This document shows, piece by piece, positions 30,665-48,009 of a DNA stretch of 64,000 nucleotides. A program made the position numbers and the translations under genes. A model generated the notes under the pieces. The model saw only the letters and a list, made by a program, of their open reading frames with translations, made no database searches and was not told where the DNA came from. The DNA is from Lactobacillus helsingborgensis (GTDB lineage: Bacteria; Bacillota; Bacilli; Lactobacillales; Lactobacillaceae): NCBI RefSeq assembly GCF_000970855.1, contig NZ_KQ034047.1:409623-473622 (forward strand). Direction: 5' to 3'. The stretch's first letter is position 1; each line of letters opens with the position of its first letter.

Positions 30665-30718
30665 TTGACTTTTGCCTAAGCCAACCATATACTAAACTTA
30701 TATTAATATGCAGTTTAG
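30665..30718 (+). promoter_or_regulatory. Shared adhesin promoter and dyad, copy 1
   Basis: TTGACT, 17 bases, TATACT (30688-30693). The dyad CTAAAC (30692-30697) / GTTTAG (30713-30718) overlaps the -10 box and spans the expected start point, so it acts on DNA rather than as a full RNA hairpin. The same block occurs at three later adhesin genes. Confidence 0.75.
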
Positions 30719-30730
30719 AAGAGGAATTAT

Positions 30731-33226
30731 ATGAATACACATAAGAATGCTAACAAGCAAGGAGAAAAAATATTGCTCGGCGGCGTGGCCGCAGCTGCTT
30801 TAGGCTTAATTAATGCCAAACCCCAGACGGTGAAGGCAGCTAATCAGAATGGCAACCGTGCTACCAAGAAGGCTGCGAGCAGAGCAGTCAAGACTAAATT
30901 GACCTACCAAAATGAAACTGATACAGAAACTGAAGGTGAAACAGCTACTAATGATGACCCTGCTGGTCAAAACAGCGGCAGTCAAACCGCTGGCAGTGAA
31001 AATAATGCAGGAACAGCAAGCAGCAACCCAGCAGGTGGCAGTAATCAAGATGCAGCTGCAGGCAATACCAGCGCTCCAAGCACCACAGACAATACAAAAA
31101 CTGAAAAACTCGGAAAAGCTGTCAAAAGAGATAACGAAAACCCTACCGTACTAACCGGTGTTTGGCTTGGTGTCGATGTAACTTATCAGCCTGGACTCGG
31201 GATATTTACTGTTAAAGGTAACAATCAAACTATTAATACTGTTAACGATCGTTCTACTAGTATCTTAAAAGCAAAAAAGAGTCGTGATCTTCTTGCTGAC
31301 CCTCTTATTGTAGATAGAAATCAAGTTAGAGAAGTACGTTTTGAAGGGTCTTTGACCATTAACGGTACAGTCCAAAGTATGTTCGACACTTTACCAAATT
31401 TAACCACCGTTACTGGATTAGAAAACCTGAATACATCTAATGTATATAGCATGTATGGCATGTTTGCTAATTGTTCAAGCCTAAGGTCAGTTGAGGGAAT
31501 AAATAAATTAGACGCTTCCAAAGTAACTGATATGTCCTACATGTTTGAAAACTGTTTTGAAAACTCTAAAGATTTAATTAACTTAGATTTAAGTGGCTTA
31601 AATATCGGTTTAAATATTAATAAGAATGATACTATTACCATGAAAGAGATGTTTAGGGGTTGTTCTAAACTTAAAAGCATAATTTTACCAGATAAAATTG
31701 ATACTTCTCAGGTTACCGATATGACAGGTATGTTTTATGGCTGCTCAAACTTAGTTTCTGTAAGTTATCCAAGTTCCGACAATTCTGAAGATCCAGCAAA
31801 TCCAAAAGTAGACTTATCCAAATTTAATACTAATGGCCTGCAATATATGGATTACATGTTTAGTGGATGTACTAATTTAACAACGTTGAATATTGCTAGC
31901 TTTGATATGTCAAAAGCTATAAAAACTAATGGGATTAAGAATGCTCTCAATAATTTACCTGATCTGAGAAAATTAGTACTGGGTAAGAATTGCAAATTTT
32001 ACAGAAATGATACTAATACTAATGTTGGTCTTGATACTCCAGGGACATGGGTTAATGTCGGTAACGGTACTGAAGAAAACCCGCAAATGAGTAAAAAATG
32101 GTCTTCCATCGATTTAATGAATAATTATAATGGTAACACGGATCACGATACTTATATCAGGTTTTATGATGGCTACCCTGTAAAAATTCATTACGTATAC
32201 TGCGTATACCCAGATAAATCTGATAACCTCAAAAAACAACCACCAATTTTAGATAAAGACGGAAAATCCTATGACTATGTAGTTGCCGGTGATAACGGTA
32301 AAACCAGCGACCCTATTAAAACTAAAAATATATATGGTTATACTATCAAATCCATTTATGTCAATAATGATAAACAATCTAGTACTGACAAAGTCACAGT
32401 CACATTTACTGATCACGAACAAGATGTTTACTTCGTTTATGACAGGGCAACAGGTAAACCTATTACGGTTAATTATTTATACTATGTGGATGATAAAGGC
32501 CACACAAAACCTCTTCTTGATAAAGACAATAAACCGATGACGGAAAATGTTGACGGGGTACTTTATGGTGATCAGAAAGATATTATCCCAAAACCAGTAC
32601 CTGGTTACACGATCAAGCAAATTATCATTGACGGCGTCAAACAGCCTGGAACTGATAAAGCAACTGTTGGCTACTCCGATAACGATCAAATCGTCGACTT
32701 TATTTATACTAAAAACCCTGTTAATAACGAAAATAAAGTTAAAGCAGCAGATGTAACTGTTCACTATAAAGACGAATTTGGTAATACTATTGCTCCCGAT
32801 GAGATACTGAGCGGCTATGTTGGCGATGGCTATACTACTGGGGCTAAAAATATTTCCGGCTATACATTAAAGACGAGACCAGATAATGCTACAGGGTTCT
32901 TTAGCACTTTTCCGCAAGATGTAACTTATATTTATACTAAGATAGGTACAAACAATACACCAAATATTAATGAGCCTAATACCCCTACTAAAATACCTAA
33001 GCAGAACAAAAAGAGAAAGGAAAAGAAAAATCCTACTAAGCAAACAGCAAGTCGCAATTTGTCTAAAAAGCAAGGCATTTCAAGCGTTGCTAAAAGTAAA
33101 AAAGCTGCTGCTTTACCACAGACAGGTACTAATAAGCATTCCAGTCTAACTCTGCTTGCGCTAGGAAGCTTAACTTTAGTTGGCGCATTAGGTGCAGCAT
33201 GGTTTAGTCGTAAGAAAATTAAATAA
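30731..33226 (+). CDS. BspA/DUF285-type LRR adhesin with MucBP repeats and LPQTG anchor
   Basis: An 831-residue wall-anchored protein. The signal peptide (MNTHKNANKQGEKILLGG start, cut after VKA) and a Thr/Glu/Asn/Ser-rich linker to about residue 135 are almost identical to three other genes here. Then come DUF285 repeats (about 135-475) of the form D-M-S-Y-M-F-x-N-C..L..L-D-L, the BspA-type leucine-rich repeat. Two long MucBP-like modules (about 478-660) and one standard MucBP module (ADVTVHYKDEFGNTIAPDE) follow. A Lys-rich wall-spanning stretch leads to LPQTG at 795-799, a hydrophobic helix and RKKIK. It should be cut by the sortase and linked to peptidoglycan; adhesion to mucin or other glycoproteins is inferred from family. 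Confidence 0.88.
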   Translation: MNTHKNANKQGEKILLGGVAAAALGLINAKPQTVKAANQNGNRATKKAASRAVKTKLTYQNETDTETEGETATNDDPAGQNSGSQTAGSENNAGTASSNPAGGSNQDAAAGNTSAPSTTDNTKTEKLGKAVKRDNENPTVLTGVWLGVDVTYQPGLGIFTVKGNNQTINTVNDRSTSILKAKKSRDLLADPLIVDRNQVREVRFEGSLTINGTVQSMFDTLPNLTTVTGLENLNTSNVYSMYGMFANCSSLRSVEGINKLDASKVTDMSYMFENCFENSKDLINLDLSGLNIGLNINKNDTITMKEMFRGCSKLKSIILPDKIDTSQVTDMTGMFYGCSNLVSVSYPSSDNSEDPANPKVDLSKFNTNGLQYMDYMFSGCTNLTTLNIASFDMSKAIKTNGIKNALNNLPDLRKLVLGKNCKFYRNDTNTNVGLDTPGTWVNVGNGTEENPQMSKKWSSIDLMNNYNGNTDHDTYIRFYDGYPVKIHYVYCVYPDKSDNLKKQPPILDKDGKSYDYVVAGDNGKTSDPIKTKNIYGYTIKSIYVNNDKQSSTDKVTVTFTDHEQDVYFVYDRATGKPITVNYLYYVDDKGHTKPLLDKDNKPMTENVDGVLYGDQKDIIPKPVPGYTIKQIIIDGVKQPGTDKATVGYSDNDQIVDFIYTKNPVNNENKVKAADVTVHYKDEFGNTIAPDEILSGYVGDGYTTGAKNISGYTLKTRPDNATGFFSTFPQDVTYIYTKIGTNNTPNINEPNTPTKIPKQNKKRKEKKNPTKQTASRNLSKKQGISSVAKSKKAAALPQTGTNKHSSLTLLALGSLTLVGALGAAWFSRKKIK

Positions 33227-33327: not shown

Positions 33328-33368
33328 AATATTGAATTGTGTATGTTATTAAAGAAAGAATGAGGAAA

Positions 33369-34598
33369 ATGAATAAACACAAAATTATCAAACAAGGTAA
33401 AAAGCTGCTATTTAGTAGCATAGCAGCTGCAGTTTTAGGCATGATTTGTGTAACTACTAAACCCGTTAAAGCTGCCACTGTAAATGGTGATTATCCTTCA
33501 ACCAATAGTGTTAATACAAAAAAAGCTGAACTAAATTATCAGGCTAAAAATAATGCACCTACGGTTAAAAATGATAGTGCTAAATTTGATTCTACCAAAG
33601 CTATTAAGAGTGATACTATCGAAACAGGTACTTGGGATGGAATACCTGTAGAATATGATACTGTTACCCATACACTCACAATTGGTGGTGGCACCATTAA
33701 TAACACCATGCATGTGCCAAATGTGCCAAATACTTTACAACTTTTACGCATTGACTGGAATGACCCATCGTATACCTATGACACACTAGAAGTTAAAACT
33801 ATCAACTTTACTAAAAAATTAGTTATCAATGGTTCTGCTGCTGAATGGTTTAGATTTTATAATAATTTAACGACCATTAACGGTTTTGAAAATGTTGACC
33901 TAACCCACGCTACTGATATGAACTCTATGTTTATTAATTGTACTGCTTTAGAGAATATAGACTTAAACAAGTTATTTCAGCCAGATAAAACATATGCCGT
34001 AACTAATGTTGCGCATATGTTTGAGGGCTGTAAGAAAATAACAAATCTGGACTTTTCTAATTTTGATACTTCAAATGTTGTTGACATGTCAGGTATGTTC
34101 AATGGTGACATTAATTTAACCCAACTTGATTTAAGCAAATTTAATACTTCTAATGTAACGAATATGAATGCTATGTTCAGTGACTGTCCAAAACTGACCT
34201 CAATAAAAGGGTTAGACAAATTTGATACTTCTAAAGTAACTTCAATGGGACAAATGTTTGCTTATTGTTCTTCTTTGAATAAATTAGATCTAAGTAACTT
34301 TAACACTTCTAAAGTAACTCAATTCTATTTTATGTTCTACAGATGTACTAATTTACAGAATTTAAACATTAGCAGTTTTGATATGACACATGCTAATTTT
34401 AATTTTAATATGTTTGCAAGCTTACCTAATTTAAAAACTCTTGTACTTGGAAAGAAATGTGTTATGGCTAATACTGGTCTCGATACACCAGGAAAATGGA
34501 TAAGTGATAATGGAGATTTGTGGACATCAGATGAGCTAATGGCTAATTATAATGGTAGTACCGATTATGGTAAATATCGTCATAAGGATATGAATTAA
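33369..34598 (+). CDS. Secreted BspA/DUF285-type protein without anchor
   Basis: About 409 residues from the preferred ATG (MNKHKIIKQGKKLLFSS, matching its relatives); in-frame starts at 33339 (GTG) and 33360 exist but give odd N-termini. A signal peptide ends near KPVKA. A non-repetitive domain follows, then about eight DUF285 repeats such as VVDMSGMFNGDINLTQLDLS, with the pattern of a Met-x-x-Met-Phe turn and a D-L-S strand. The protein ends at DELMANYNGSTDYGKYRH, the place where siblings go on into MucBP modules and an anchor. It is therefore probably a released form, or a truncated copy. It has its own promoter and terminator. Confidence 0.8.
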   Translation: MNKHKIIKQGKKLLFSSIAAAVLGMICVTTKPVKAATVNGDYPSTNSVNTKKAELNYQAKNNAPTVKNDSAKFDSTKAIKSDTIETGTWDGIPVEYDTVTHTLTIGGGTINNTMHVPNVPNTLQLLRIDWNDPSYTYDTLEVKTINFTKKLVINGSAAEWFRFYNNLTTINGFENVDLTHATDMNSMFINCTALENIDLNKLFQPDKTYAVTNVAHMFEGCKKITNLDFSNFDTSNVVDMSGMFNGDINLTQLDLSKFNTSNVTNMNAMFSDCPKLTSIKGLDKFDTSKVTSMGQMFAYCSSLNKLDLSNFNTSKVTQFYFMFYRCTNLQNLNISSFDMTHANFNFNMFASLPNLKTLVLGKKCVMANTGLDTPGKWISDNGDLWTSDELMANYNGSTDYGKYRHKDMN

Positions 34599-34672: not shown

Positions 34673-34686
34673 CTATCGATGATTAT

Positions 34687-34740
34687 TTGACTTTGATTTA
34701 GCTCAGTCATATACTAAACCTATATTAACATGCAGTTTAG
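34687..34740 (+). promoter_or_regulatory. Shared adhesin promoter and dyad, copy 2
   Basis: TTGACT, 17 bases, TATACT (34710-34715), with CTAAAC (34714-34719) and GTTTAG (34735-34740), identical in spacing to the copy at 30665. Confidence 0.75.
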
Positions 34741-34752
34741 AAGAGGAATTAT

Positions 34753-37700
34753 ATGAATACACATAAGAATGCTAATAAGCAAGGAGAAAAAATATTGCTT
34801 GGCGGCGTAGCCGCAGTTGCTTTAGGCTTAATTAATGCCAAGCCCCAGACGGTGAAGGCAGCTAATCAAAATGGCACTCGTGCCACCAAGAAGACTGCGA
34901 GCAGAGCAGTCAAGACTAAATTGACCTACCAAAATGAAACTGATTCAGAAACTGAAGGAGAAACAGCTACTAATGATGACCCCATTGGCAGTGAAAATAG
35001 TGTAGGAACAGCAAGCAGCAACCCTGAAATTGGACAGGGGCAAGCCGGTGCTAATAGCAATCCAGCAAGTGGCAGTAATCAAAATCCAGCTGCTGACGAT
35101 GCAATAGGTGATAAGCAAGAAGCTGGCTCAGCACAATTTGATCATGCTAACGAAATTCGTGACAGCAATACTACTATCTCAAGTACTTGGGAAAATATAC
35201 CTGTCACGTTTCACAATGGCGTACTATCAATTGGTGAAAAAGGCAAAACCTATACAATAAATAATTCAGACAATAAAGATATTAGCATTGACATGAACAT
35301 TGACAATGTTTCTGGAACCGACATTACAGAGATCGATATTAATGCTCCCATTGCCATCATTGGATCAGCTGAAACACTTTTCTACCACCTCTTGAACCTT
35401 ACATCAATAAATGGTTTAGATAAACTAGATACTTCTAAAGTAACGAGTATGCTACAAATGTTTATGGACTGTACAAAAATGACTTCTTTAGATTTATCCA
35501 GTTTCAATACTACTAATGTAACCAATTTTAGTACAATGTTTGCCTTTGACCCCAGCCTAACTAGCGTAGATCTATCTAGTTTTACTGTTAGAGATGGCGC
35601 TACAACTATGGGAATGTTTGTAATAAGCGATGATGATACTCCCAGTTTGTCCAAATTAATTTTAGGTAAAGGTTTTAAATTCACTACAAGAAATGGTAGA
35701 CCCAACAATTCACTTCAACAGCCAGGAACTTGGGTAAACATGGGGGAAGGCGATGGTTCTCTGACCAAGGGTACTAATCAGTGGTCTTCAGCCGATTTCA
35801 TGACTAAGTACCAAGGTGATAGAGACCATGATACTTATGTTAGATATACTGGTGGCATCGTAACTGTTCATCGCCAAGATGAAGATGGCAAGCAGCTAGT
35901 TGATCAAGATGGTAAGGAAATTCCTGATGAAAAGCTTTTCGGCAACATTTCAGACTCAGTAACTGTTGACACCAGTAAAGAATTTGCTGGCTACAAGTTC
36001 AAAGAAAACAAGAATTCTGATATAAAAGCATTTATCTCTGATCCACAAACTATCACTCTAGTCTATTCTAAGAGTAAAACTGATAATACTTGGGAAGGTG
36101 TTCCTTATACCTTTAATAATGGCGTCTTATCACTTGGTGAAAAAGACAAAGACTATTTAATTGACAACACCGCCGAAAAAGAAATTGGCATTAATAATAA
36201 TATAAATAATATAAATACTGATAATATTAATGAAATAGATATTTTGGGAAAAATAACAATTAATGGGCCAGCTGATTCATTATTTGATACTCTTCCTAAT
36301 TTAACTCAAATTAACGGCTTAAATAACCTCATTACTTCAGATGTCACTGACATGAGCTACATGTTTGCCAATTGTCCAAAATTAGTTTCATTAGATCTCT
36401 CAAGTTTTGATACTAGCAAAGTTGCATTCTTTTCTTCTATGTTTTATGCAGATACTGACCTATCTAGCGTAAACTTATCTAGTTTTACAATTACTGATGA
36501 TGCTGTAGATTATAGTTTGTTTGATTCATGTACAAATTTAACTAAATTAGTTTTAGGTAAAGGTTTTAAATTCACTACAACGAATGATCTACCAAATGAT
36601 TCACTTCAACAGCCAGGTACTTGGGTAAACATGGGTGAAGGAAACGGTTCCTTGACTAAAGGTACTAATCAGTGGTCTTCAGCTGATTTAATGACCAATT
36701 ACCAAGGTGATAGAGACCATGATACTTATGTTAGATATACTGGTGGCATCGTTACTGTTCATCGCCAAGACGAAGAAGGCAAGCAGCTAGTTGATCAAGA
36801 TGGTAAGCAGATTCCTGATGAAAAGCTTTTCGGCAACATTTCAGACCTGGTAACTGTTGACACCAGCAAAGAATTTGCTGGCTACAAGTTCAAAGAAAAC
36901 AAGAATTCTGATATAAAAGCATTTATCTCTGACCCGCAAGATATTACTTTGGTCTACTCTAAGAGTAAAACTGATAACACTTGGGAAGGTGTTCCTTATA
37001 CCTTTAATAATGGCGTCTTATCGCTAGGTGAAAATGGTAAAACCTATCCAATTGACAACTCAGGAAACAAAGAAAGGAGCTACGCACTTGACACTCGAGA
37101 TATTAGCATTAGCCAAAATATTAAGGGCGTAAATGTTGATGAGATTAAAGAAATTGATCTTAATGCGAATATTAAAATTAAGGGCAGTGCCAACGGACTT
37201 TTTAAGAACCTGAAGAATTTAGCTACAATAAAAGGCTTAAGTAATTTAGATACTTCGCAAGTAACGAATATGGAACAAATGTTTTCGAACTGCCCTAAAT
37301 TGACTGCATTGGACCTTTCAAGTCTCAACACTGATAATGTTGTTTCCTATTCTTCGATGTTTAGTGGCGACACAGCTTTAACTAGTGTAGACCTATCCAG
37401 TTTTAAAGTTGCAGCTAATACCGAAGTGAAGGACATGTTCAATTCTTGTTCCAGCTTAACTAAGCTAACTTTAGGCAAAGACTTTAAGTTTATTGGCTCC
37501 ATTGGATTAAATGATTTATCAGGTACTTGGGTAAACATGGGAGAAGGCAATGGCTCTCTGACTAAAGGTACTAATCATTGGTCTTCAGCCGATTTCATGA
37601 CTAAATACCAAGGAGACAGAGACCATGACACTTACGTTAGATATACTGGTGGTACTGTTACTGTTCATCGCCAAGATGAAAATGACAACCAGTTAGTTCC

Positions 37701-38460
37701 TGATGAATATCTCTTTGGCAATATTTCAAACCCGGTAACTGTTGACACCAGCAGGGAAATTGCCGGTTACACCTTCAAGGAAAACAAAAATTCTGATGTC
37801 AAGACATTCAAATCTAATGAACAGTTTGTTAACCTTATTTATACCAAATCAGATAACAATAATGGTTCAAACACTGTTAATACTGGAACAACTGCGACCA
37901 GTCCTGCTGCTATAGCACCTGCAGTCACAGTTCATTACCAAGATGAATATGGCAATACTATTGCTCCTGATCGTGTTGTTCAAGGTCGGATTGGCGATGG
38001 CTATACTACTGGTGCTGAGACGGTTTCCGGCTATAGTTTAAAGACTAGACCGGATAATGCAACGGGTTTCTTTAGCAACAATCCGCAAAGCGTTACCTAT
38101 GTTTACAGCAAGAGTGCTGGCAATACTACTGCCACTGTACCAGCAGATAACACGGCCTCTGCTGAGAATGAGCCTACTCCAATCCCAACTCATAAAACGA
38201 AAAAGTCTAAAGCAGTTAAGCATCATCAGACTGCTAATAAAGGACTTAAAGAAAGGCATCAAGCTAAACGTCAAACTAGATTGACAGCGGCAAGCGGCAA
38301 GCTGAATAAAGCTGCTAATGACCCGCAAAAAGGCAGGCAAGATAACACCCTGCCGCAAACTGGCACTGAGAAACGCAACAGCCTCGCCATGCTCGCTTTA
38401 GGCAGCTTAGCCTTGGCAACCGCCTTAGGCGCTGCTTGGCTTAACCGTAAGAAAGACTAA
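34753..38460 (+). CDS. BspA/DUF285-type adhesin with three near-identical modules and LPQTG anchor
   Basis: A 1235-residue wall-anchored protein. After the shared signal peptide and linker, a module of about 300 residues occurs three times. Each has a start of the type TWEGVPYTFNNGVLSLGE, a short DUF285 repeat block, a conserved W-V-N-M-G-E-G stretch, and a MucBP-like domain opening VTVHRQDE and closing LVYSKSK or similar. A final standard MucBP module (VTVHYQDEYGNTIAPD), a basic Lys/His/Gln-rich wall region and LPQTG at 1200-1204 follow, with a hydrophobic helix and RKKD. The module junctions are nearly identical in DNA, showing recent duplication. Sortase anchoring is expected. Module number may vary between strains. 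Confidence 0.88.
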   Translation: MNTHKNANKQGEKILLGGVAAVALGLINAKPQTVKAANQNGTRATKKTASRAVKTKLTYQNETDSETEGETATNDDPIGSENSVGTASSNPEIGQGQAGANSNPASGSNQNPAADDAIGDKQEAGSAQFDHANEIRDSNTTISSTWENIPVTFHNGVLSIGEKGKTYTINNSDNKDISIDMNIDNVSGTDITEIDINAPIAIIGSAETLFYHLLNLTSINGLDKLDTSKVTSMLQMFMDCTKMTSLDLSSFNTTNVTNFSTMFAFDPSLTSVDLSSFTVRDGATTMGMFVISDDDTPSLSKLILGKGFKFTTRNGRPNNSLQQPGTWVNMGEGDGSLTKGTNQWSSADFMTKYQGDRDHDTYVRYTGGIVTVHRQDEDGKQLVDQDGKEIPDEKLFGNISDSVTVDTSKEFAGYKFKENKNSDIKAFISDPQTITLVYSKSKTDNTWEGVPYTFNNGVLSLGEKDKDYLIDNTAEKEIGINNNINNINTDNINEIDILGKITINGPADSLFDTLPNLTQINGLNNLITSDVTDMSYMFANCPKLVSLDLSSFDTSKVAFFSSMFYADTDLSSVNLSSFTITDDAVDYSLFDSCTNLTKLVLGKGFKFTTTNDLPNDSLQQPGTWVNMGEGNGSLTKGTNQWSSADLMTNYQGDRDHDTYVRYTGGIVTVHRQDEEGKQLVDQDGKQIPDEKLFGNISDLVTVDTSKEFAGYKFKENKNSDIKAFISDPQDITLVYSKSKTDNTWEGVPYTFNNGVLSLGENGKTYPIDNSGNKERSYALDTRDISISQNIKGVNVDEIKEIDLNANIKIKGSANGLFKNLKNLATIKGLSNLDTSQVTNMEQMFSNCPKLTALDLSSLNTDNVVSYSSMFSGDTALTSVDLSSFKVAANTEVKDMFNSCSSLTKLTLGKDFKFIGSIGLNDLSGTWVNMGEGNGSLTKGTNHWSSADFMTKYQGDRDHDTYVRYTGGTVTVHRQDENDNQLVPDEYLFGNISNPVTVDTSREIAGYTFKENKNSDVKTFKSNEQFVNLIYTKSDNNNGSNTVNTGTTATSPAAIAPAVTVHYQDEYGNTIAPDRVVQGRIGDGYTTGAETVSGYSLKTRPDNATGFFSNNPQSVTYVYSKSAGNTTATVPADNTASAENEPTPIPTHKTKKSKAVKHHQTANKGLKERHQAKRQTRLTAASGKLNKAANDPQKGRQDNTLPQTGTEKRNSLAMLALGSLALATALGAAWLNRKKD
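35180..37860 (+). repeat. Three in-frame modules of about 0.9 kb
   Basis: Repeat units begin near 35185, 36088 and 36979. The second halves of units 1 and 2 (from the WVNMGEG codons through the MucBP-like part) are nearly identical in DNA; unit 3 is more divergent and has a short deletion in its MucBP-like part. Confidence 0.85.
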
Positions 38461-38471
38461 ATAAATTCTAA

Positions 38472-38513
38472 CAAAAAAACGTTCTATATTATTAAATATA
38501 GGACGTTTTTCGG
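38472..38513 (+). terminator. Terminator
   Basis: AAAACGTTCTATAT pairs with ATATAGGACGTTTT around a 6-base loop, then T. The same sequence follows the next gene at 42184. Confidence 0.92.
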
Positions 38514-38529
38514 TCTAGCTTAGCTTAGT

Positions 38530-38583
38530 TTGACTTTTAATAATCTCAGCCATATACTAAACTTATATTAATATGCAGTTTAG
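38530..38583 (+). promoter_or_regulatory. Shared adhesin promoter and dyad, copy 3
   Basis: TTGACT, 17 bases, TATACT (38553-38558), with CTAAAC (38557-38562) and GTTTAG (38578-38583). Confidence 0.75.
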
Positions 38584-38595
38584 AAGAGGAATTAT

Positions 38596-41500
38596 ATGAA
38601 TACACATAAGAATGCTAACAAGCAAGGAGAAAAAATATTGCTCGGCGGCGTGGCCGCAGCTGCTTTAGGCTTAATTAATGCCAAACCCCAGACGGTGAAG
38701 GCAGCTAATCAGAATGGCAACCGTGCTACCAAGAAAGCTGCGAGCAGAGCAGTCAAGACTAAATTGACCTACCAAAATGAAACTGATTCAGAAACTGAAG
38801 GTGAAACAGCTACTAATGATGACCCTGCTGGTCAAAACAGCGGCAGTCAAACCGCTGGCAGTGAAAATAATGCAGGAACAGCAAGCAGCAATCCAGCAAG
38901 TGGCAGTAATCAAAATGCAGCTGCAGGCAATACCAGCGCTCCAAGCACTACAGACAATGCAAAAGCTGATAAGCAAGAAACGGGCTCTACACAATTTGAC
39001 CCTGCTAAAGCTACTCGAGATGGCGCAATTTCAGGTACTTGGAATAGTATACCTACCACTTTTTCTGATGGAGTATTGTCTATTGGAGAACAAGGAAATA
39101 ATTACTCGTTTGGTAACATAAACTCCGACTACCAGGGACTTTCATTTAGTGACAATAAGAAAAACTTAAAAATTGATGATTTATCTACTATTACAGAAGT
39201 TGATTTTAATGCTCCTATCAAAGTTTTGGGTGGGGTAATAAATTTTTTTGGTGGTTTAACTAACTTAACTACAATTAAGGGACTGCCTAATTTAGATACT
39301 GAGAATGTAACTAGCATGTATGGCTGGTTTGATGGTTGCAAGTCTTTAACCAGTTTAGATTTATCCCATTTTGATACTTCTAATGTTACTAATATGTCTC
39401 GTATGTTTGATAAATGCTCATCACTAGCATCTATTACCTTCTCTAATAAATTTAAGACAGATCAAACAACTGACATGTCCTATATGTTCAATGGCTGCCA
39501 AAAACTACCAAATATTGATATGTCTACGTTTAAAATAGCAAGCGGAACAGACACGTCCTATATGTTTAAAGATTGCAAATCTTTTACTAAATTAGATTTA
39601 TCTAGTTCTTCCTGTACTGGTGACGCAAGTCATATGTTTGAGGGTTGCGATAATCTTGAATATTTAAATTTACTTAACCTTACTACAATTGATCAAGTTG
39701 ATCATGGAGAACACTTTATTAGAGGTACTTGCTACTCTATGCTTAAAGATCTTCCTAAACTAAAAGTAATAGTATTAGGCCGCTATACCCATATAAAACA
39801 GTCCGATTTTAATACTGAAGGGATATGGGTAAACATGGGTATTCCTCAAGGGACTTGGCCAGCCCCCCAAAAAGGTTCAATCCAACTAAGTTCTGCTGAC
39901 CTTGCCCAGAAGTATGATAATAGTGTCTTTAACGAAGATCTTTACCAAGACACTTATATTAACTTTAGGAACCTCGGTAAAGGAATTACTGTTCAATACC
40001 GTGACGAAGATGGCAACAAAATTCCTGGTGTTGACGATGATATTCAATTTGGTAATATTGATGACTTTCTCGTAAACAACGATCCCTATACTGCCTTTAA
40101 ACCACAAGAAAAGTTTACTGATAGTTCAGGAAACGAGTATGATTTTGATAATTTAGCTAAGATGAATAATAGTACGGTTAACTATAACGCTGTGAAATTT
40201 ACCCCTAATGACCAGACTATTACTTTCTTCTATACTAAAAAAGCTAATAATTCTGACACTTCCAATGGTTCAGACTCTTCTAATGGCTCTAATACTTCTA
40301 ATGGTTCAGACTCTTCCAACGGCTCTGATACCTCTAATGGCTCAGACTCTTCCAACGGCTCTGATACTTCTAACGGTTCAGACACCTCCAATGGCTCTGA
40401 CCCTAGTGATTCTGGTCCTTCTGTTTCAAGTACTTGGGAAGGTGTGCCTGTTATCTTCTATACTGATTCTGGTAAATTAAAAATAGGTAATCCTAAAAAT
40501 ACTTATACCGTTAAAGGTGATAGTTTATCTACCAATATTGGCATCAAGAACAATATATCTTTTGTAGACACATCAAAAATCAAAGAAATAAATATAGTAG
40601 GAAACATAGAAATCGAAGGGTATGCTCAAAACCTATTTTCGGGCCTTCCTAGTTTACAAACTTTTAAGGGATTAGAAAACTTAAAAACAGATAAAGTAAC
40701 ACGGATGGACAATATGTTTGAAGGCTGTTCATCACTAACCTCACTATCACTTCCTAAAAGTTTTAATACAAGTAAAGTAACCAATATGGGAGGCATGTTT
40801 TGGAACTGTACTGCTCTAAAAACTTTAGATTTGTCATATTTTGATACTTCTCAAGTAACTAATATGTTAAATATGTTTAGCGGGTGTACCAGTCTAAAAA
40901 GCTTAAACCTACAAAATTTCAATACCGATGAGATAGATGATTTTTTGGGATTAGGTTCTATGTTTGAGAATTGTACCAATCTTGAAGAACTAAATATCGA
41001 AAACTTTAATATGCCATCTGCTAAGTCCGCTACTTCAATGTTTGAAAATGACTCTAATCTACGAAAATTAGTTTTGGGACCTAAGTGCAATATTTCAAAT
41101 TCTAATCTTAATGTTCAAGGTACTTGGGTAAACATGGGACTAGGAAAAGGTTCCCCTAAAAAAGGTACATGCAAGTGGTATTATCCAGAGGCATTCTTAG
41201 ATGAATTTAATCCTTCGACTCAACATGATACTTATGTATGTTTTGCTGATCTTGGAGGACCAATTACAGTTCACTATCAAAATGACAATAAAGATATTGC
41301 TGATGCAGAACAGCAATATGGTGACATAGATACTAAACTTGTCAACGACGGCTCATTCACTGCTTTTAATCCCAAAGAAATTAAGGGATATAAATTTGAC
41401 CACGCAGAATTCAATGGATCGGGAACGGATATAAATAGCTTTCTGTTCACAAGCAAGCCTCAAACCGTTAATCTTATATATAAGAAAACTACTGGTGGTT

Positions 41501-42171
41501 CTGGTAGTGAAAGCTCAAGTAGTAGTAGTTCTGGATCTACTCCTGACAGTGGAAGTTCTAGCAGCAGTACTTCTGGTTCCACTTCTGACAGTGGAAATTC
41601 TAGTAGCAGTGCTTCTGGATCTACTTCTGACAGTGGAAGTTCTAGCAGCAGCTCCTCTACTTCCACACCTGGGAATGGCAGCACTAGCAGTAGCGCCTCA
41701 AACTCTAACTCCAGTAGTACTAGTTCTATGCCTTCTGGCAGCTCTGGTATTTCCAATGGCTCCAATAGTTCCAATGGTTCAGGATCAAACAATAGTAGTG
41801 GCAGCAATGTGATTAACAATAATACGCCTACCCCAATTCCGACCAATAATAAGCCAAAAAAGAAATCTACTAAGAAGTCACATAAAAAACACCGGATGGA
41901 TAAGCAGAATAATTCAAAAGCAGTTAAGCGTCACCAGACTGCTAATAAAGGACTTAGAGAAAGGCATCAAGCTAAGCGCCAAACTAAATTGGCAGCGACA
42001 AGCGGCAAGCTGAATAACACCGCTAATGACCCGCAAAAAGTTACACAAGGTAACACCACCCTGCCGCAAACTGGCACTGAGAAACGCAACAACCTCGCCA
42101 TGCTGGCCTTAGGCAGCTTAGCCTTGGCAACCGCCTTAGGTGCTGCTTGGCTTAACCGCAAGAAAGACTAA
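38596..42171 (+). CDS. BspA/DUF285-type adhesin with two modules, Ser-rich linkers and LPQTG anchor
   Basis: A 1191-residue wall-anchored protein. The N-terminal 130 codons are nearly identical to the gene at 30731. A first DUF285 block and MucBP-like domain reach about residue 550; a Ser/Asn/Gly/Asp tandem repeat (about 552-605) links to a second DUF285 block opening STWEGVPVIF and a second MucBP-like domain ending near 970. A long Ser/Gly/Thr stalk (about 972-1075), a very basic region (KPKKKSTKKSHKK) and LPQTG at 1156-1160 with helix and RKKD complete it. The last 85 codons and the terminator are near-copies of those of the gene before it. Surface display via sortase is expected; the ligand is unknown. 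Confidence 0.88.
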   Translation: MNTHKNANKQGEKILLGGVAAAALGLINAKPQTVKAANQNGNRATKKAASRAVKTKLTYQNETDSETEGETATNDDPAGQNSGSQTAGSENNAGTASSNPASGSNQNAAAGNTSAPSTTDNAKADKQETGSTQFDPAKATRDGAISGTWNSIPTTFSDGVLSIGEQGNNYSFGNINSDYQGLSFSDNKKNLKIDDLSTITEVDFNAPIKVLGGVINFFGGLTNLTTIKGLPNLDTENVTSMYGWFDGCKSLTSLDLSHFDTSNVTNMSRMFDKCSSLASITFSNKFKTDQTTDMSYMFNGCQKLPNIDMSTFKIASGTDTSYMFKDCKSFTKLDLSSSSCTGDASHMFEGCDNLEYLNLLNLTTIDQVDHGEHFIRGTCYSMLKDLPKLKVIVLGRYTHIKQSDFNTEGIWVNMGIPQGTWPAPQKGSIQLSSADLAQKYDNSVFNEDLYQDTYINFRNLGKGITVQYRDEDGNKIPGVDDDIQFGNIDDFLVNNDPYTAFKPQEKFTDSSGNEYDFDNLAKMNNSTVNYNAVKFTPNDQTITFFYTKKANNSDTSNGSDSSNGSNTSNGSDSSNGSDTSNGSDSSNGSDTSNGSDTSNGSDPSDSGPSVSSTWEGVPVIFYTDSGKLKIGNPKNTYTVKGDSLSTNIGIKNNISFVDTSKIKEINIVGNIEIEGYAQNLFSGLPSLQTFKGLENLKTDKVTRMDNMFEGCSSLTSLSLPKSFNTSKVTNMGGMFWNCTALKTLDLSYFDTSQVTNMLNMFSGCTSLKSLNLQNFNTDEIDDFLGLGSMFENCTNLEELNIENFNMPSAKSATSMFENDSNLRKLVLGPKCNISNSNLNVQGTWVNMGLGKGSPKKGTCKWYYPEAFLDEFNPSTQHDTYVCFADLGGPITVHYQNDNKDIADAEQQYGDIDTKLVNDGSFTAFNPKEIKGYKFDHAEFNGSGTDINSFLFTSKPQTVNLIYKKTTGGSGSESSSSSSSGSTPDSGSSSSSTSGSTSDSGNSSSSASGSTSDSGSSSSSSSTSTPGNGSTSSSASNSNSSSTSSMPSGSSGISNGSNSSNGSGSNNSSGSNVINNNTPTPIPTNNKPKKKSTKKSHKKHRMDKQNNSKAVKRHQTANKGLRERHQAKRQTKLAATSGKLNNTANDPQKVTQGNTTLPQTGTEKRNNLAMLALGSLALATALGAAWLNRKKD
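40250..40415 (+). repeat. Tandem repeat coding for Ser-Asn-Gly-Ser-Asp units
   Basis: About nine short units of six codons (SNGSDT / SNGSDS type), often in 36-base pairs, form a flexible linker. Such repeats can change length by slippage in frame. Confidence 0.85.
41500..41820 (+). repeat. Ser/Gly-rich stalk repeats
   Basis: Imperfect units of about 16 codons of the type SSSSSSGSTPDSG give a stalk between the last MucBP-like domain and the basic wall region. Confidence 0.8.
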
Positions 42172-42182
42172 ATAAATTCTAA

Positions 42183-42222
42183 CAAAAAACGTTCTATATT
42201 ATTAAATATAGGACGTTTTTCT
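42183..42222 (+). terminator. Terminator
   Basis: A copy of the hairpin at 38472-38513: AAAACGTTCTATAT / ATATAGGACGTTTT, then T. Confidence 0.92.
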
Positions 42223-42239
42223 GTCTAGCTTAGCTTAGT

Positions 42240-42293
42240 TTGACTTTTAATAGGGTCAGCCATATACTAAACTTATATTAATATGCAGTTTAG
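42240..42293 (+). promoter_or_regulatory. Shared adhesin promoter and dyad, copy 4
   Basis: TTGACT, 17 bases, TATACT (42263-42268), with CTAAAC (42267-42272) and GTTTAG (42288-42293). Confidence 0.75.
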
Positions 42294-42305
42294 AAGAGGA
42301 ATTAT

Positions 42306-45300
42306 ATGAATACACATAAGAATGCTAACAAGCAAGGAGAAAAAATATTGCTCGGCGGCATAGCCGCAGCTGCTTTAGGCTTAATTAATGCCAAACCCCA
42401 AACGGTGAAGGCAGCTAATCAAAATGGCAACCGTGCCACCAAGAAGGCTGCAAGAAGAGCAGTCAAGACTAAATTGACCTACCAAAATGAAACTGATTCA
42501 GAAACGGAAGGCGAAACAGCTACTGAAGATGACCACATTGGCAGTGAAAATAATGCAGGAACAGCAAGCAGCAATCCAGCAAGTGGCAGTAATCAAAATG
42601 CAGCTGCAGGCAATACCAGCGATCCAAGCACTACAGACAATGCAAAAGCTGATAAGCAAGAAACGGGCTCTACACAATTTGACCCTGCTAAAGCCACTAG
42701 GGCAAGCTTTCCAAGTAAATGGCAAGGATTAGACATCAGTTTCGACGATGAAGGTGATATATTAAAAATTAGTGGTGGTACAATTGATAACAGTGATAAT
42801 CATACTATCAGCTTGTACTACAACCTAAATAGTCAAAATCAAACGTTAGCTGCTGATATTAAAGAAATTGATATCACTGGCAAACTCAAAATTATTGGCT
42901 CTGCAGCGGATCTGTTTACTAGCCTTGAGAATTTAGAAACTATCAAAGGTCTAGATAACCTTGATACTTCTGAAGTTACCAGCATGGAAAACATGTTTAG
43001 TAAAGATAAAAAACTAAAAAATATCGATTTATCTAGTTCAACTACTTTTAAAACAGATAAAGTGACAGACATGTCATACATGTTCGCTAGTGACGAGTCT
43101 TTAACTAAGTTAGATTTATCCCACTTTGATACCTCAAATGTTACAAACATGGCGCATATGTTTGAAAGCTGTGTGGGACTTCATAGTTTTGCATTCCCAG
43201 CTACTTTTAACACGGATAAAGTAACAGACATGTCATACATGTTTGATAACTGTAATCAAGTTTGGTCAATTGACGTAACCAAATTCAATACTTCTAATGT
43301 TGAAAACATGGCATATATGTTTTATAATTGTCAAAGTTTTCTTACATTAGACGTATCAAGCTTTGATACGTCAAAAGTGACAGATATGTCATATATGTTT
43401 GGTGCTTGTGTTAATTTGCTTAAATTAAATCTGCCGACTACCTTTGTTACCGACAATGTTCAAAATATGAAGGGAATGTTTAGCGGTTGTGAGTACATAA
43501 CTGAGTTAGACTTATCAAAGTTTAATACTGCTAAAGTAACTAATATGGCGAATATGTTCGGAGGTTGTAGCAAATTGACAAAGATTACTGCCTCTGATAA
43601 CTTTACTACCGCAAATGTTACTAACATGAGTGACATGTTTTCTGGCGATATCGTAATTACTACTGATAGTATAAACAAATTAATATCCAGATTCGATACT
43701 AGCAAAGTCACAGACATGACAGAAATGTTTGATGGCTGCTCACAAGTAACTTCACTTGATTTGTCTAAATTTGATACTGCAAATGTCGGAAATGTTTCTG
43801 AAGAACTATCTCGTGCTGGTATGGAAAGAATGTTTAGTGGCTGTGGTAACTTAACTACTTTAGACTTAAGCAATTTTGATACTAAAAATGTCCGTGATAT
43901 GAGCTGGATGTTTAATAACAATAAAAATTTAGCAAGTATAAACCTAAATCCTTCACTTTTCAATACCTCTAACGTTATTGACATGAATCACATGTTTGAA
44001 GATTGTCATTCATTAACTAGTGTTGATGTCAGTCATTTTGATACTTCAAACGTACGTGATATGAGTTACATGTTTGATGAATGTATTAAATTAACTGCAA
44101 TAGATGTTAGTCATTTTAATACTGCCAAAGTAAAAGATATGACGAATATGTTTGCTTATTGTGAATCTTTACCAAGTTTAGATGTCACTAATTTCAACAC
44201 GGCAGCTGTTACTGATATGTTAAAAATGTTCTGGCAATGTTCAAATTTAATCAGTTTGGACCTATACAACTTTAATACCAGAACAGTTTCTGACTATACT
44301 GACATGTTTCAAGGCTGTGATAAACTAGCAAAACTTGACCTTAGTAGTTTTGATATGCAAATTTCAGCATCAACTATTGGTGATATGCTTAGTGATCTTC
44401 CATCTCTTGAAGTGCTTATACTAGGCAGAAGAAATGATTTGAATATAGTCAAAAATTATTGGGACGGTGGTTTAGGCAACAATCATGATGGCAAAGAAGA
44501 AGATTTCTGGGTTAACATGGGAGTAAATAAAGACAACGGTGGTCTTCAGCCTAGAGTTCATTCTTGGACTGGTGCTGATTTAATGAAAAATTATGATGGC
44601 AGTAAGGATTATGATGTGTATGTTAATATCAATAAAATTCCAAATCCTTGCAGTATTACCATTAATTATCAATTTGAGGACGATAAAACCGCCAAACTTT
44701 CGCCAAACGATTATCAATTCGGTACCGCTGGTAAAGACGTGGTTATCCCAATCACAGCCAGAAAGTTGCCTACCTACAAACTTGCTTACGTTGAAATTAA
44801 TGGCAACAAATACGCCACAGATAAATATGAAGATGCGTTGAGTAAACTAAAGTTTACTAATGATCCTCAAACTATTACCTTTGGATATGAAAAGAGTAAT
44901 GCTGGTAAGGGTAATAGTTCTAATGGAACAGGTTCAGATAGTAATAGTTCTAGCGGCAGTTCTTCTGGTTCTAACTCTGGCAGTAACAGCTCCAGCGGCA
45001 GTTCCTCTGGTTCTAATCCTGGCAGTAATAATTCCAACGGCAGTTCCTCTGGTTCTAATCCTGGCAGTAACAGTTCCAGCGGCAATTCCTCTGGTTCTAA
45101 TCCTGGCAGCAGCAGTTCCAGCGGCAATTCCTCTGGTTCTACCCCAAGCAGTAACAGTTCCAGCGGCAGTTCTTCTGGTTCTAATCCTGGCAGTAACAGT
45201 TCATCTGGTTCCAATGCTGGTAACAATACGAACAATCCTGGTAGTGTCAATAATGGAAGTTCAAATAATTCTGGCGTAACCAGCACTGGACAAAATAGTA

Positions 45301-45719
45301 ATTCATCTAACACTTCAACTGACAATAATACCGAAAAAACTCCAACGAAGAATGGTGTTAAGAGAATAGTTGCCCACAATGCTTACATCTTTAATGAAAA
45401 GGGTCAACGTCTAGAAGGCGAATACTTTATTGGCAATACCATTACTACCTATGGTACTAAGTTCATTAAAGGTAAGAAGTTCTATGACTTAGGCAAGAAC
45501 CAATTTGTTAAGGCTAACAATATTACTGGCATCAATCGTAGATTAAGACATAATGCCTTTATTTACACTAAGAAAGCTAATAAGAAAGTCAAACGTTATG
45601 GTCGTATTGTTCTAAAGAAGAACAAAAAAGTTAAAACTTATGGTGGTACTATTAAAATACACAATAAGTTGTATTACATTGTAGGTAAGAACCAATTTGT
45701 TAAGAAAGCTAATTTTTAA
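42306..45719 (+). CDS. BspA/DUF285-type adhesin ending in two SLAP domains
   Basis: A 1137-residue exported protein. The promoter, signal peptide and linker are those of the LPQTG relatives. An unusually long array of about 17 DUF285 repeats follows (about 215-690; DMSYMF, NMAHMF, NMKGMF and so on), then a MucBP-like domain (NPCSITINYQFEDDKT, to about 865) and a Ser/Gly/Asn/Pro stalk. The C-terminal 120 residues are two SLAP domains (NAYIFNEKGQRLEGEYF, then NAFIYTKKANKKVKRYG), which bind cell-wall polymers without covalent linkage, as in Lactobacillus S-layer proteins. There is no LPxTG. This is therefore the same adhesin head on a different anchor. SLAP end and stalk resemble the next gene, pointing to exchange of gene ends. 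Confidence 0.88.
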   Translation: MNTHKNANKQGEKILLGGIAAAALGLINAKPQTVKAANQNGNRATKKAARRAVKTKLTYQNETDSETEGETATEDDHIGSENNAGTASSNPASGSNQNAAAGNTSDPSTTDNAKADKQETGSTQFDPAKATRASFPSKWQGLDISFDDEGDILKISGGTIDNSDNHTISLYYNLNSQNQTLAADIKEIDITGKLKIIGSAADLFTSLENLETIKGLDNLDTSEVTSMENMFSKDKKLKNIDLSSSTTFKTDKVTDMSYMFASDESLTKLDLSHFDTSNVTNMAHMFESCVGLHSFAFPATFNTDKVTDMSYMFDNCNQVWSIDVTKFNTSNVENMAYMFYNCQSFLTLDVSSFDTSKVTDMSYMFGACVNLLKLNLPTTFVTDNVQNMKGMFSGCEYITELDLSKFNTAKVTNMANMFGGCSKLTKITASDNFTTANVTNMSDMFSGDIVITTDSINKLISRFDTSKVTDMTEMFDGCSQVTSLDLSKFDTANVGNVSEELSRAGMERMFSGCGNLTTLDLSNFDTKNVRDMSWMFNNNKNLASINLNPSLFNTSNVIDMNHMFEDCHSLTSVDVSHFDTSNVRDMSYMFDECIKLTAIDVSHFNTAKVKDMTNMFAYCESLPSLDVTNFNTAAVTDMLKMFWQCSNLISLDLYNFNTRTVSDYTDMFQGCDKLAKLDLSSFDMQISASTIGDMLSDLPSLEVLILGRRNDLNIVKNYWDGGLGNNHDGKEEDFWVNMGVNKDNGGLQPRVHSWTGADLMKNYDGSKDYDVYVNINKIPNPCSITINYQFEDDKTAKLSPNDYQFGTAGKDVVIPITARKLPTYKLAYVEINGNKYATDKYEDALSKLKFTNDPQTITFGYEKSNAGKGNSSNGTGSDSNSSSGSSSGSNSGSNSSSGSSSGSNPGSNNSNGSSSGSNPGSNSSSGNSSGSNPGSSSSSGNSSGSTPSSNSSSGSSSGSNPGSNSSSGSNAGNNTNNPGSVNNGSSNNSGVTSTGQNSNSSNTSTDNNTEKTPTKNGVKRIVAHNAYIFNEKGQRLEGEYFIGNTITTYGTKFIKGKKFYDLGKNQFVKANNITGINRRLRHNAFIYTKKANKKVKRYGRIVLKKNKKVKTYGGTIKIHNKLYYIVGKNQFVKKANF
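44920..45225 (+). repeat. 42-base tandem repeats coding for a Ser/Gly/Asn/Pro stalk
   Basis: About six or seven units of 14 codons of the type SSSGSSSGSNPGSN, highly alike in DNA, next to the SLAP domains. Copy number may vary. Confidence 0.88.
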
Positions 45720-45952: not shown

Positions 45953-46061
45953 TCGAATAGTCTCCCTATTATTCAACTGCCAAAGTAAAATTTTTTCACA
46001 ATTAAAACAACGTTAAACCTGGAAACGCTAACCATAAGTAAAATATTAAGGGCTATTAATA

Positions 46062-46145
46062 ATGGAATTAGCCGAGTTAAACAGCATTATTCTAGTATTT
46101 TTAACTTGTTTTTTGGCCTTATTTATTATTTCAGTTAATGCTTGA
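46062..46145 (+). CDS. Possible 27-residue membrane peptide
   Basis: An ATG-started frame coding for a peptide with a short acidic start (MELAELNS) followed by one continuous hydrophobic helix (IILVFLTCFLALFIISVNA). An AAGGG lies about 11 bases upstream. Size and make-up are those of small membrane toxins or regulatory peptides, but nothing proves translation and AT-rich spacers give such frames by chance. Confidence 0.2.
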   Translation: MELAELNSIILVFLTCFLALFIISVNA

Positions 46146-46322
46146 TTTTGGCATAAATAAAATTAGCCTATTCTTAATTAAGTCCATTTTTTATTTGAAT
46201 AAGCTTATTTTATGAATAATTGGCAAAATTTTGTTTACTAGTAATATGCAAAAGTATTAAATCTATATGAAAATACCAATCACAGTATTGAATTAGACAG
46301 GATATATGTATATACTTAATAA

Positions 46323-46331
46323 TGGTATAAT
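46323..46331 (+). promoter_or_regulatory. Extended -10 promoter of the second SLAP gene
   Basis: TGGTATAAT, an extended -10 element, 32 bases before the ATG at 46363. No good -35 box is seen. Confidence 0.5.
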
Positions 46332-46362
46332 GAAATTTAGATGGTATAAATGGAGGAAAAAT

Positions 46363-48009
46363 ATGAGTAAGCATAACAATTTTTATCATAAAGGTAAAAA
46401 GGTACTATTCTCTAGTATGGCAGTTGCTGCGTTAAGCGTAATTGCAGTTAATCCTGTTGCAGCTAAGGCTGCCGAAGCACAGAAAGAGCAACCTGTTAAG
46501 CCAGCTGAAACTAAGTCAACAACAAATAATGATAAGGGCAATAAAAAAGATATAGAGGATCATACTGCCAAAGATGATTCAAAATGGACTAGAGACAATT
46601 GCAGTTACGACGAAAAGACTAAGACTTTAACTATTGAAGCTGATACAATTGACAATAGTAATTATACAAGTGACACAAACCCTATCAATCCTGCTCAAAT
46701 AGCTTGGAATATTGATGGTGTTGATACAGATGAAATTGAAACCATTGTAATTGAAAATTCCGTTACTTTTAAGGGCGATGCTAGTTCCTTATTTGCTAAT
46801 TTACCAAACTTGAAGGAAATTGTGGGATTAAACAAACTTAAGACAGAAAATGTCACTAACATGAAACAAATGTTTGCCAATGATCCTAAATTAACTTCAT
46901 TGGACCTGTCAAACTTTGACACTTCTAACGTAACTGATATGATGGGCATGTTCATGGATGACTCTAGTTTAACTTCATTAGATGTATCACACTTTAATAC
47001 TGAAAAAGTGACTGATATGTCATACATGTTTGCTCAGGTTGATGCATCTAATGAGGACGATAAACCAAGTAAAGACGCTGCTCCGAAATTGACTGAAATT
47101 AAAGGTTTGAATAAGTTTGATACTGCCAAGGTAGAACGGATGGGCAATATGTTTACTAACCAGAGCGCTTTAACATCTTTGGACATCAGTAGTTTCAAAA
47201 CTCCAAAGGAATCAGTACCAGTAAAAGATGAAAACGGAAAAACACTTTATAATGAGCCCGCTGAAACTGATATGTTAAAGGGACTGGATAGCTTAACCTC
47301 TCTAAAACTTGGTAAAGACAATATTATTAAAAGTTCTGGTCTTAACACAAAGGGTACATGGAACCTGAACGGTAAGAACTTAACTTCTGATGAATTTGCA
47401 AGTCAATTTGATGGTAAGAAAGATGCTGGTGACTTCACTTCAACTCCTGCAAGCACACCTTCAACTCCAAGTACTCCAACTACACCAAGCACACCGACTA
47501 CTCCAAGTAATACTACTAACACAGGTAATACCAACACAAATACTACGACTGATAAGCAAGACACTAATAAGACGGATACTAACAAGCCAGAAACTAACAA
47601 GCCTGCTACTGACAACAAGAAGCCAGCTAAAAAGGCCAAGAAAGGTGTCAAGAGAGTAGTTACCCACAACGCTTATATCTTTAACCAAAAAGGCAAGCGT
47701 GTAAAAGCTGAATACTTCGTTGGTAAAACTATTACTACTTATGGCACTAAGACCATTAACGGCAAGAAGTTTTATGATTTAGGCAAGAACCGTTTCGTTA
47801 AGGCTAATAATGTTACTGGTATCAACCGTAAATTAAAGCACAATGCCTTTATTTACACTAAGAAAGCCAATAACAAAGTTAAACGTTATGGTCGTGATGT
47901 TCTGAAGAAGAACAAGTCAGTTAGAACTTACGGTGGTGCTGTTAAGATGCACAATAAGTTATATTACATCGTAGGCAAGAATCAATTTGTCAAGAAAGCT
48001 AACTTTTAA
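46363..48009 (+). CDS. BspA/DUF285-type protein ending in two SLAP domains
   Basis: A 548-residue exported protein. The ATG at 46363 is chosen because GGAGG lies 6 bases upstream and the product then opens with a normal signal peptide (MSKHNNFYHKGKKVLFSS, cut after AKA). After a charged linker come five or six DUF285 repeats (about 150-290: NMKQMFANDPKLTSLDLSNF, DMMGMFMDDSSLTSLDVSHF), no MucBP module, a Thr/Pro/Ser stalk (about 360-426) and two SLAP domains (427-548) nearly the same as those of the gene upstream. It should sit non-covalently on the wall. Its promoter differs from the shared adhesin promoter, so it may be expressed under other conditions. Confidence 0.86.
   Translation: MSKHNNFYHKGKKVLFSSMAVAALSVIAVNPVAAKAAEAQKEQPVKPAETKSTTNNDKGNKKDIEDHTAKDDSKWTRDNCSYDEKTKTLTIEADTIDNSNYTSDTNPINPAQIAWNIDGVDTDEIETIVIENSVTFKGDASSLFANLPNLKEIVGLNKLKTENVTNMKQMFANDPKLTSLDLSNFDTSNVTDMMGMFMDDSSLTSLDVSHFNTEKVTDMSYMFAQVDASNEDDKPSKDAAPKLTEIKGLNKFDTAKVERMGNMFTNQSALTSLDISSFKTPKESVPVKDENGKTLYNEPAETDMLKGLDSLTSLKLGKDNIIKSSGLNTKGTWNLNGKNLTSDEFASQFDGKKDAGDFTSTPASTPSTPSTPTTPSTPTTPSNTTNTGNTNTNTTTDKQDTNKTDTNKPETNKPATDNKKPAKKAKKGVKRVVTHNAYIFNQKGKRVKAEYFVGKTITTYGTKTINGKKFYDLGKNRFVKANNVTGINRKLKHNAFIYTKKANNKVKRYGRDVLKKNKSVRTYGGAVKMHNKLYYIVGKNQFVKKANF

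Follow-up and report, generated by a model that had tools for sequence, protein, structure and literature searches.

How can tandem surface-protein genes begin with almost the same DNA, continue into unlike bodies and end in different kinds of anchor? This question is raised by a locus of Lactobacillus helsingborgensis lying in a stretch of 64,000 nucleotides (part of contig C3; the assembly comprises 2.02 Mb in 9 contigs), which we call the window and number from its first letter. A BglG/LicT-type antiterminator, a sortase and a MucBP protein form the left side of the locus, an LPQTG protein and an S58 peptidase the right side, and between these flanks stands a tandem array of surface genes. 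Four of them, starting at 30731, 34753, 38596 and 42306 (genes 1 to 4), have in common a head made of a promoter-like site, a leader, a signal peptide and codons 1-75. We consider it probable, at roughly 0.78, that in this sortase-linked surface locus homologous recombination, largely between Firm-5 species, replaces gene middles or blocks of genes. The locus is a mosaic with traceable boundaries, its heads, tails and bodies are discordant, one orthologue differs in anchor, and gene 3 (38596) fuses two bodies.

The locus was compared across 75 genomes of the genus, our own included, with one genome per species. G063 is the sister genome, G030 was taken as Lactobacillus laiwuensis F551-2 and G024 as Lactobacillus sp. 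W8174. The relatives that carry the same head are presumably the bee-gut Firm-5 lactobacilli, an assumption that the long SLAP frames of the own genome (2400-4663 amino acids) fit.

Mosaic of species at the locus

The flanks of the array are about 97% identical to the sister genome G063, and the segment from 29.6 to 45.65 kb is without a close counterpart there. In tiles of 300 bp, identity to G063 was 93-100% over 20-29.6 kb, with a dip to 85-92% at 21.5-22.4 kb, and 90-100% over 45.65-54 kb, except for the body of the SLAP gene 46363; it was 98% over 51.6-64 kb. Across the array six scattered tiles matched at 67-75%, and the array of G063 itself comprises two different genes plus a SLAP remnant without a head. 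The closer relatives of the array were found in G030 and G024, which are 85-97% identical to it over the gene 4 body, and the leucine-rich repeat (LRR) gene 29477 is 86-96% identical to G030 in tiles, whereas the flanks of these two genomes are mostly 70-90% similar to the window. Exact matches of at least 60 bp, counted in the left flank (20.0-29.6 kb), the array (29.62-44.9 kb) and the right flank (45.66-51.5 kb), numbered 46, 0 and 26 for G063 but 3, 16 and 0 for G030; the corresponding counts were 0, 7 and 3 for G024, 0, 3 and 0 for G065, and 1, 0 and 12 for G029. Synonymous divergence (dS) from G030/G024 was 0.86-1.36 in four flank genes and low (0.18-0.41) in three of five body segments, namely the gene 4 body (0.18-0.23), the second body of gene 3 (0.32-0.40) and the gene 1 body (0.38-0.41). 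Together, the dS values, exact matches and tile identities argue that part of the array was recently exchanged with the L. laiwuensis/W8174 lineage, in one direction or the other.

The left boundary of the exchanged tract was placed at 29611-29614, in codon 45-46 of the LRR gene and past its signal peptide as judged by eye (MaxChi-type scan with 723 informative sites, chi2 539, reached by 0 of 1000 permutations). The right boundary falls in the final ~25 codons of the SLAP end of gene 4, identity to G063 resuming at ~45640-45680. The SLAP gene 46363 contains another exchanged tract, its body: identity of this gene to G063 is complete up to ~46.50 kb, then 51-90%, and 96% again from ~47.45 kb, the right edge lying ~190 bp ahead of the SLAP repeat. 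Each of the four boundaries against G063 either follows directly on a signal peptide, recognised visually, or lies no more than 200 bp from an anchor. Further exchange between species is indicated by G063 and G029, whose entire SLAP gene has a dS of 0.04 against 0.78-1.44 in four left and 0.37 and 0.50 in two right flank genes.

Several points weigh against this account. The gene 2 body has a dS of 0.51-1.02 from four G030/G024 relatives and of 0.39 and 0.61 from two G065 genes, and the first body of gene 3 has 0.91; these two bodies are therefore older, and recent exchange does not cover everything. The pattern in the four boundaries was noticed after the fact. The G063 assembly is 66% complete, the contigs with the G030 array (C18, C19, C23 and C26) are unjoined to the G030 flanks, and runs of N interrupt two G024 genes.

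Outside the array, a patch at 21.05-21.35 kb (21050-21650) is 96-99% identical to G030/G029, and the beta-glucosidase-like gene at 21558-23003 is 92% identical to G063 (dS 0.42), most nearby DNA reaching 95-100%. The region 21050-23003 is perhaps another, smaller exchange.

Shared heads and separate histories

Among the four genes, codons 1-75 are 93.3-99.1% identical in DNA, with pairwise dS of 0.02-0.20. A preceding sequence-only reading had described nearly the same DNA from the promoter through about codon 100 in all four; this holds for genes 1, 3 and 4, whose match extends past codon 100 (with gaps in gene 4), and fails for gene 2, where the shared head stops near codon 77. In self-comparison, 30664-31104 is 96.8% identical to 38529-38969 (442 columns) and 86.2% identical, with 29 gaps, to 42239-42652, and 34685-34982 is 93% identical to 30663-30960; the long repeats have E-values of 2e-99 or lower, which excludes chance. 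TTGACT-N17-TATACT occurs at 30665, 34687, 38530 and 42240, in a scan that also yields chance matches (76 found, 69.5 expected). The same reading had called the 3' ends and terminators of genes 2 and 3 near-copies, and indeed 240 of 267 aligned positions in their last 270 nt and 130 of 134 in the intergenic parts are identical, with a stem in both. The self-comparison also disclosed what it had missed, one continuous repeat of ~820 bp that runs from tail through terminator and promoter into the next head. As it had stated, these heads lead into different DUF285 bodies, with 27-47% protein identity in the aligned parts.

The head family was found as DNA in 6 of the 75 genomes and as protein in 12 (E<=1e-3), strongly (E<1e-10) in 6, and the number of head genes varies: G018 has none at the locus, and G024 has at least nine in an array that overruns its contig. 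Trees were built from 31 heads and 32 sorting signals. The own four heads are monophyletic (92/94, not starred), and trees in which heads follow bodies were rejected for the groups of genes 4, 1 and 2 (approximately unbiased test, p 0.0007, 0.0002 and 0.0007). Tails following bodies were rejected for the gene 2 group, the one group tested (five members with tails; p 2e-31), and the six G065 tails form one clade (96/87). These results support heads, bodies and anchors having had separate histories in the groups tested.

Old tandem duplication would produce similar ends, with exchange unneeded, if signal peptide, promoter and anchor had been under strong purifying selection. Function constrains both signal peptides and sorting signals, and G024/G030 heads are also 88-93% identical to the own heads. 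The heads of genes 1 and 3, however, differ by a dS of only 0.02 beside bodies at 27-47% identity, and protein constraint leaves synonymous sites free; moreover, the head tree groups by genome and not by body, and a 562-bp exact block common to another species lies in a body. Provided that the assembly is correct, synonymous divergence and trees reject simple duplication with constraint, which we regard as highly improbable.

Shuffling could instead have taken place mainly inside the genome, through unequal crossing-over and gene conversion among tandem copies, with exchange between species being secondary. In its favour, a stretch of 186 bp, the longest exact repeat, is common to the heads of genes 1 and 3, the 820-bp junction repeat would readily serve as a substrate, heads 24759 and 28209 of G065 are identical over 225 bp, and gene 3 fuses bodies that are separate in G030. 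Yet these array genes are missing from the sister genome, and their bodies match those of other species. Shuffling inside the genome is quite possible, though short of likely. The recombination proposed in the sequence-only reading is borne out in substance by the separate histories of head, body and anchor, with the correction that exchange is seen most clearly between species, at a locus they share, rather than within the genome.

Exchange between species is itself qualified by these trees. Support for grouping the tails of genes 2 and 3 is only 74/82, sequences from G024, G030 and G029 are intermingled in both trees, and the small gap between head dS from G030/G024 (0.16-0.33, with 0.68 from one G065 gene) and that within the own genome leaves the head tree (92/94) as the main argument for within-genome homogenisation. 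Orthologues of gene 1 with the same body and anchor type exist in G024 and, over two contigs, in G030, and the gene 1 tail groups with its orthologues' tails (99/98), the G030 tail and body being on different contigs; four divergent-head pairs of G029/G024 also stay with orthologous bodies (99-100). The earlier reading had held that shuffling would not be active if related strains all kept the same pairings and the repeats diverged in step. Pairings are kept for gene 1 and for the G029/G024 heads, which speaks in part against shuffling, and are discordant in other groups, so shuffling is uneven.

Programmed antigenic variation, in which a dedicated system transfers silent cassettes to an expression site by gene conversion, would fit conserved ends with variable middles, and headless SLAP remnants do occur in relatives. 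But each of the four genes has its own promoter-like site and a single intact frame, a layout of expression site and silent copies was not encountered, and no recombinase was found among the ten neighbouring proteins scanned with Pfam, other open reading frames (ORFs) of the window lying outside that scan. We consider such a system very unlikely.

Anchor of gene 4 and fused bodies of gene 3

The bodies of genes 1-4, 46363 and 48344 exceed the curated cut-off of TIGR02167 (61-381 bits vs 30), and the array bodies also match PF03382; internalin NCBIfam models stayed below cut-off (InlJ 64-103 bits vs 1700 in four proteins). An AlphaFold model of the gene 4 body, built with three sequences, had a mean pLDDT (predicted local distance difference test) of 72.5 and repeated strands across the PARCEL part, and Foldseek returned LRR proteins at low E-values with query template-modelling scores of 0.10-0.19 among the best 50 matches. 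The gene 4 body is thus predicted to be LRR-like, and the model adds nothing further. Judging from their domains, the array proteins are probably adhesins.

As the sequence-only reading had it, three of the four genes end in LPQTG and one in SLAP. PF00746 exceeded its cut-off in genes 1, 2, 3 and 48344 and was not listed for gene 4, and PF03217 scored 87.6 bits in gene 4 and 102.6 in 46363 (vs 23). Gene 4 is also similar to a solved S-layer chain (7qeh_A, E 1.8e-13). Array proteins would accordingly be displayed covalently through LPQTG or non-covalently through SLAP.

A DNA search of the 75 genomes with the gene 4 body returned close copies only in G030 (93%) and G024 (90%). The orthologue 9955 of G030 is 93.1% identical in DNA over 736 body codons and has an uninterrupted frame with an LPQTG end, on a contig unjoined to its flank; the orthologue 26269 of G024 is 89.9% identical over 734 body codons and leads to LPQTG across a run of N, on a contig joined to its flank. 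Homology of gene 4 to these LPQTG orthologues stops at ~44915, where unlike Ser-rich linkers begin. Gene 4 is the only one with a SLAP end among the 17 head-family genes with a 3' end present (4 own, 6 from G065, 4 from G024, two of them across runs of N, and 3 from G030). The claim that covalent and non-covalent display of one head type are interchangeable is thereby supported once, in that an orthologous head and body appear with two anchor classes in the single case of gene 4.

The DNA 3' of gene 4 is that of the G063 SLAP remnant (95-100% from ~45.68 kb), and SLAP-like fragments also follow array genes in G065, G024 and G030. We infer that the end of a former array-closing SLAP gene was joined via a linker to an incoming head and body; it is possible, alternatively, that an unsampled donor of gene 4 was already SLAP-ended. 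Recent conversion of this end from the neighbour 46363 is not favoured. The two SLAP ends, earlier described as near-copies, are 83.7% identical over 380 columns, an overstatement, and gene 4 is no closer to 46363 than to the SLAP genes of G030, G063, G029, G018, G027 and G024 (83-84%).

Related observations were made in the other arrays. In G065 (L057, ~3.9-5.2 kb, minus strand) a frame-broken SLAP end directly follows the last LPQTG gene and is itself followed by what looks like a transposase remnant. An array gene of G063 (L061, ~11110-14937, minus strand) has the sorting motif LSQTG in place of LPQTG, and anchoring of its protein may therefore be impaired. The leader of the G030 gene 9955 (L063:9897-9954) is the sole one of 21 compared that is without the TATACT box; this gene starts 58 bp after its neighbour and is perhaps co-transcribed with it.

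Gene 3 combines a body like that of G030 13926 (residues 1-551, 67%) with one like that of G030 6927 (residues 609-975, 81%), which are two separate genes in L. laiwuensis. The pairings of head, body and anchor would be partly false if short reads had been mis-joined at near-identical heads. Exact repeats reach 186 bp in an assembly of 9 contigs, so that a swap of the post-head parts of genes 1 and 3 is conceivable, but such a swap would leave unexplained the anchor seam (44.9-45.3 kb), the fusion seam and the species boundaries, all of which lie outside the longest of these repeats, and each ORF is intact. We give an assembly artefact a very low probability.

The proposed exchange between species would use promoter, signal peptide and head on one side and anchor and terminator on the other as homology arms; since the conserved ends are alike within the genome and similar across species, they can act as such. 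Each exchange would leave a gene that is expected still to be transcribed, secreted and anchored, but with a different LRR (PARCEL) body, and a right-hand joint between body and anchor would allow the anchor class to change, as in gene 4. Homologous recombination of the RecA type, following the uptake or transfer of DNA, would suffice, with no dedicated recombinase.

Surroundings, known systems and meaning

The own genome encodes two sortases according to an own-genome search, the second on contig C1. The best solved-structure matches of the sortase of the locus are mostly class A sortases, and among the NCBIfam class models the best was class C, below its cut-off; relatives at E<=1e-60 were found in 19 of the 75 genomes, own included. 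Two genomes, G018 (L090) and G027 (L091), have the same locus without the head family, in the order sortase, 375-amino-acid surface gene, SLAP gene, LPQTG gene and peptidase, and in G027 a 349-amino-acid ORF precedes a shortened SLAP gene. Elsewhere in the window, 20699-21310 (minus strand) encodes a PBECR4 nuclease-like domain protein, and 58856-60391 (minus strand) an apiosidase-like glycosidase with DUF5060/DUF5605, for which plant-sugar use is a guess.

Table 1. Features of the surface locus in window coordinates.
Feature	Position	Strand	Remark
Sortase gene	26251..27204	+	head of locus; PF04203 E 2e-22
MucBP surface protein, left flank	27452..29320	+	96.8% DNA to G063, 71-72% to G024/G030
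LRR gene	29477..30547	+	first ~134 nt G063-like, remainder L. laiwuensis-like
Promoter-like TTGACT-N17-TATACT and 5' leader, head copy 1	30665..30730	+	
Surface gene 1	30731..33226	+	shared head, DUF285/PARCEL body, MucBP, LPQTG
DUF285 gene, different signal peptide	33360..34598	+	no anchor motif recognised
Promoter-like site and leader, head copy 2	34687..34752	+	
Surface gene 2	34753..38460	+	shared head to ~codon 77, DUF285 and MucBP blocks, LPQTG
562-bp letter-for-letter match to L. laiwuensis (G030) array gene	35296..35857	+	inside gene 2 body
Junction repeat copy A, anchor-terminator-promoter-head	38199..39015	+	91% to copy B
Terminator-like stem	38474..38512	+	also at 42184-42222; direct reading, absent from consensus scan
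Promoter-like site and leader, head copy 3	38530..38595	+	
Surface gene 3	38596..42171	+	shared head, two body types, LPQTG
36-bp tandem repeat, Ser/Asp/Gly/Asn-rich linker	40252..40401	+	seam between the two bodies of gene 3
Junction repeat copy B	41907..42698	+	self-comparison
Promoter-like site and leader, head copy 4	42240..42305	+	
Surface gene 4	42306..45719	+	shared head, long PARCEL body, Ser-rich linker, SLAP anchor
42-bp tandem repeat, Ser-rich linker of gene 4	44940..45202	+	
SLAP anchor of gene 4	45348..45719	+	two SLAP stretches
SLAP-anchored DUF285 gene	46363..48009	+	only body (~46.50-47.45 kb) strongly different from G063
LPQTG DUF285/MucBP gene, right flank	48344..50308	+	95.9% DNA to G063
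S58 peptidase gene, outer right flank	50422..51495	+	family search

A two-anchor family is already known from PspC/Hic at the pspC locus of Streptococcus pneumoniae, which is split in two by anchor type, choline-binding or LPxTG-type (PMC7814132). Its members combine a signal peptide, an N-terminal part and a proline-rich linker with a non-covalent or an LPxTG-type anchor (PMC7814132), a likeness of arrangement for which homology is not claimed. The non-covalent anchor there is choline-binding and here SLAP, and the present locus differs further in its tandem array with terminator-promoter units, its PARCEL LRR bodies and an exchange between species that can be read at the locus. The array bodies match both families of PARCEL/DUF285 repeats (TIGR02167 and PF03382), for which both horizontal transfer and shuffling within genomes were proposed in a 2010 paper (PMC2996958). 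That paper, in its available part, stresses Mollicute lipoproteins and mobile elements (PMC2996958), whereas here exchange is between corresponding loci and the ends supply secretion and anchoring.

Closer to the present organism, RNA sequencing in gnotobiotic bees found LRR/LPXT/SLAP gene clusters raised with pollen in four species, and in the same study a region of L. kullabergensis is set beside one from L. melliventris (PMC8456714). The locus described here is probably of the same kind, with the difference that mosaicism and anchor exchange are not described in the accessible portion of that study (PMC8456714). The giant Firm-5 YSIRK-DUF1542-SLAP genes of the 2015 genome paper are likewise tandem, variable in number and SLAP-ended, but have DUF1542 bodies and occupy other genome places (PMC4449606). 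In open-access titles and abstract openings we met no description of homogenised ends with exchange of bodies and anchors between species; two-anchor families and PARCEL transfer are known, and their combination at a tandem sortase-linked locus was not met in these literature listings.

Recombination is reported to be scarce in Firm-5 core genes, with evidence in 89 of 1015 genes (PMC4449606), and another study reports that four Firm-5 populations co-occur in all bees examined (PMC6347622). Against this background, a surface locus exchanged across species is conspicuous. We tentatively suggest that Firm-5 co-residents may share a pool of LRR adhesin bodies, with homogenised heads and anchors as portable arms at a docking locus, so that an imported body would at once be expressed, secreted and displayed, and covalent (LPQTG) or releasable (SLAP) display could be switched. 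The locus points to a way in which surface proteins could pass between bacteria resident in the same gut, and could be used to ask whether gut species living together diversify their attachment to host or pollen by swapping bodies. The same head and body with an LPQTG or a SLAP end would make a natural pair in which the effect of anchor class on retention and release could be followed.

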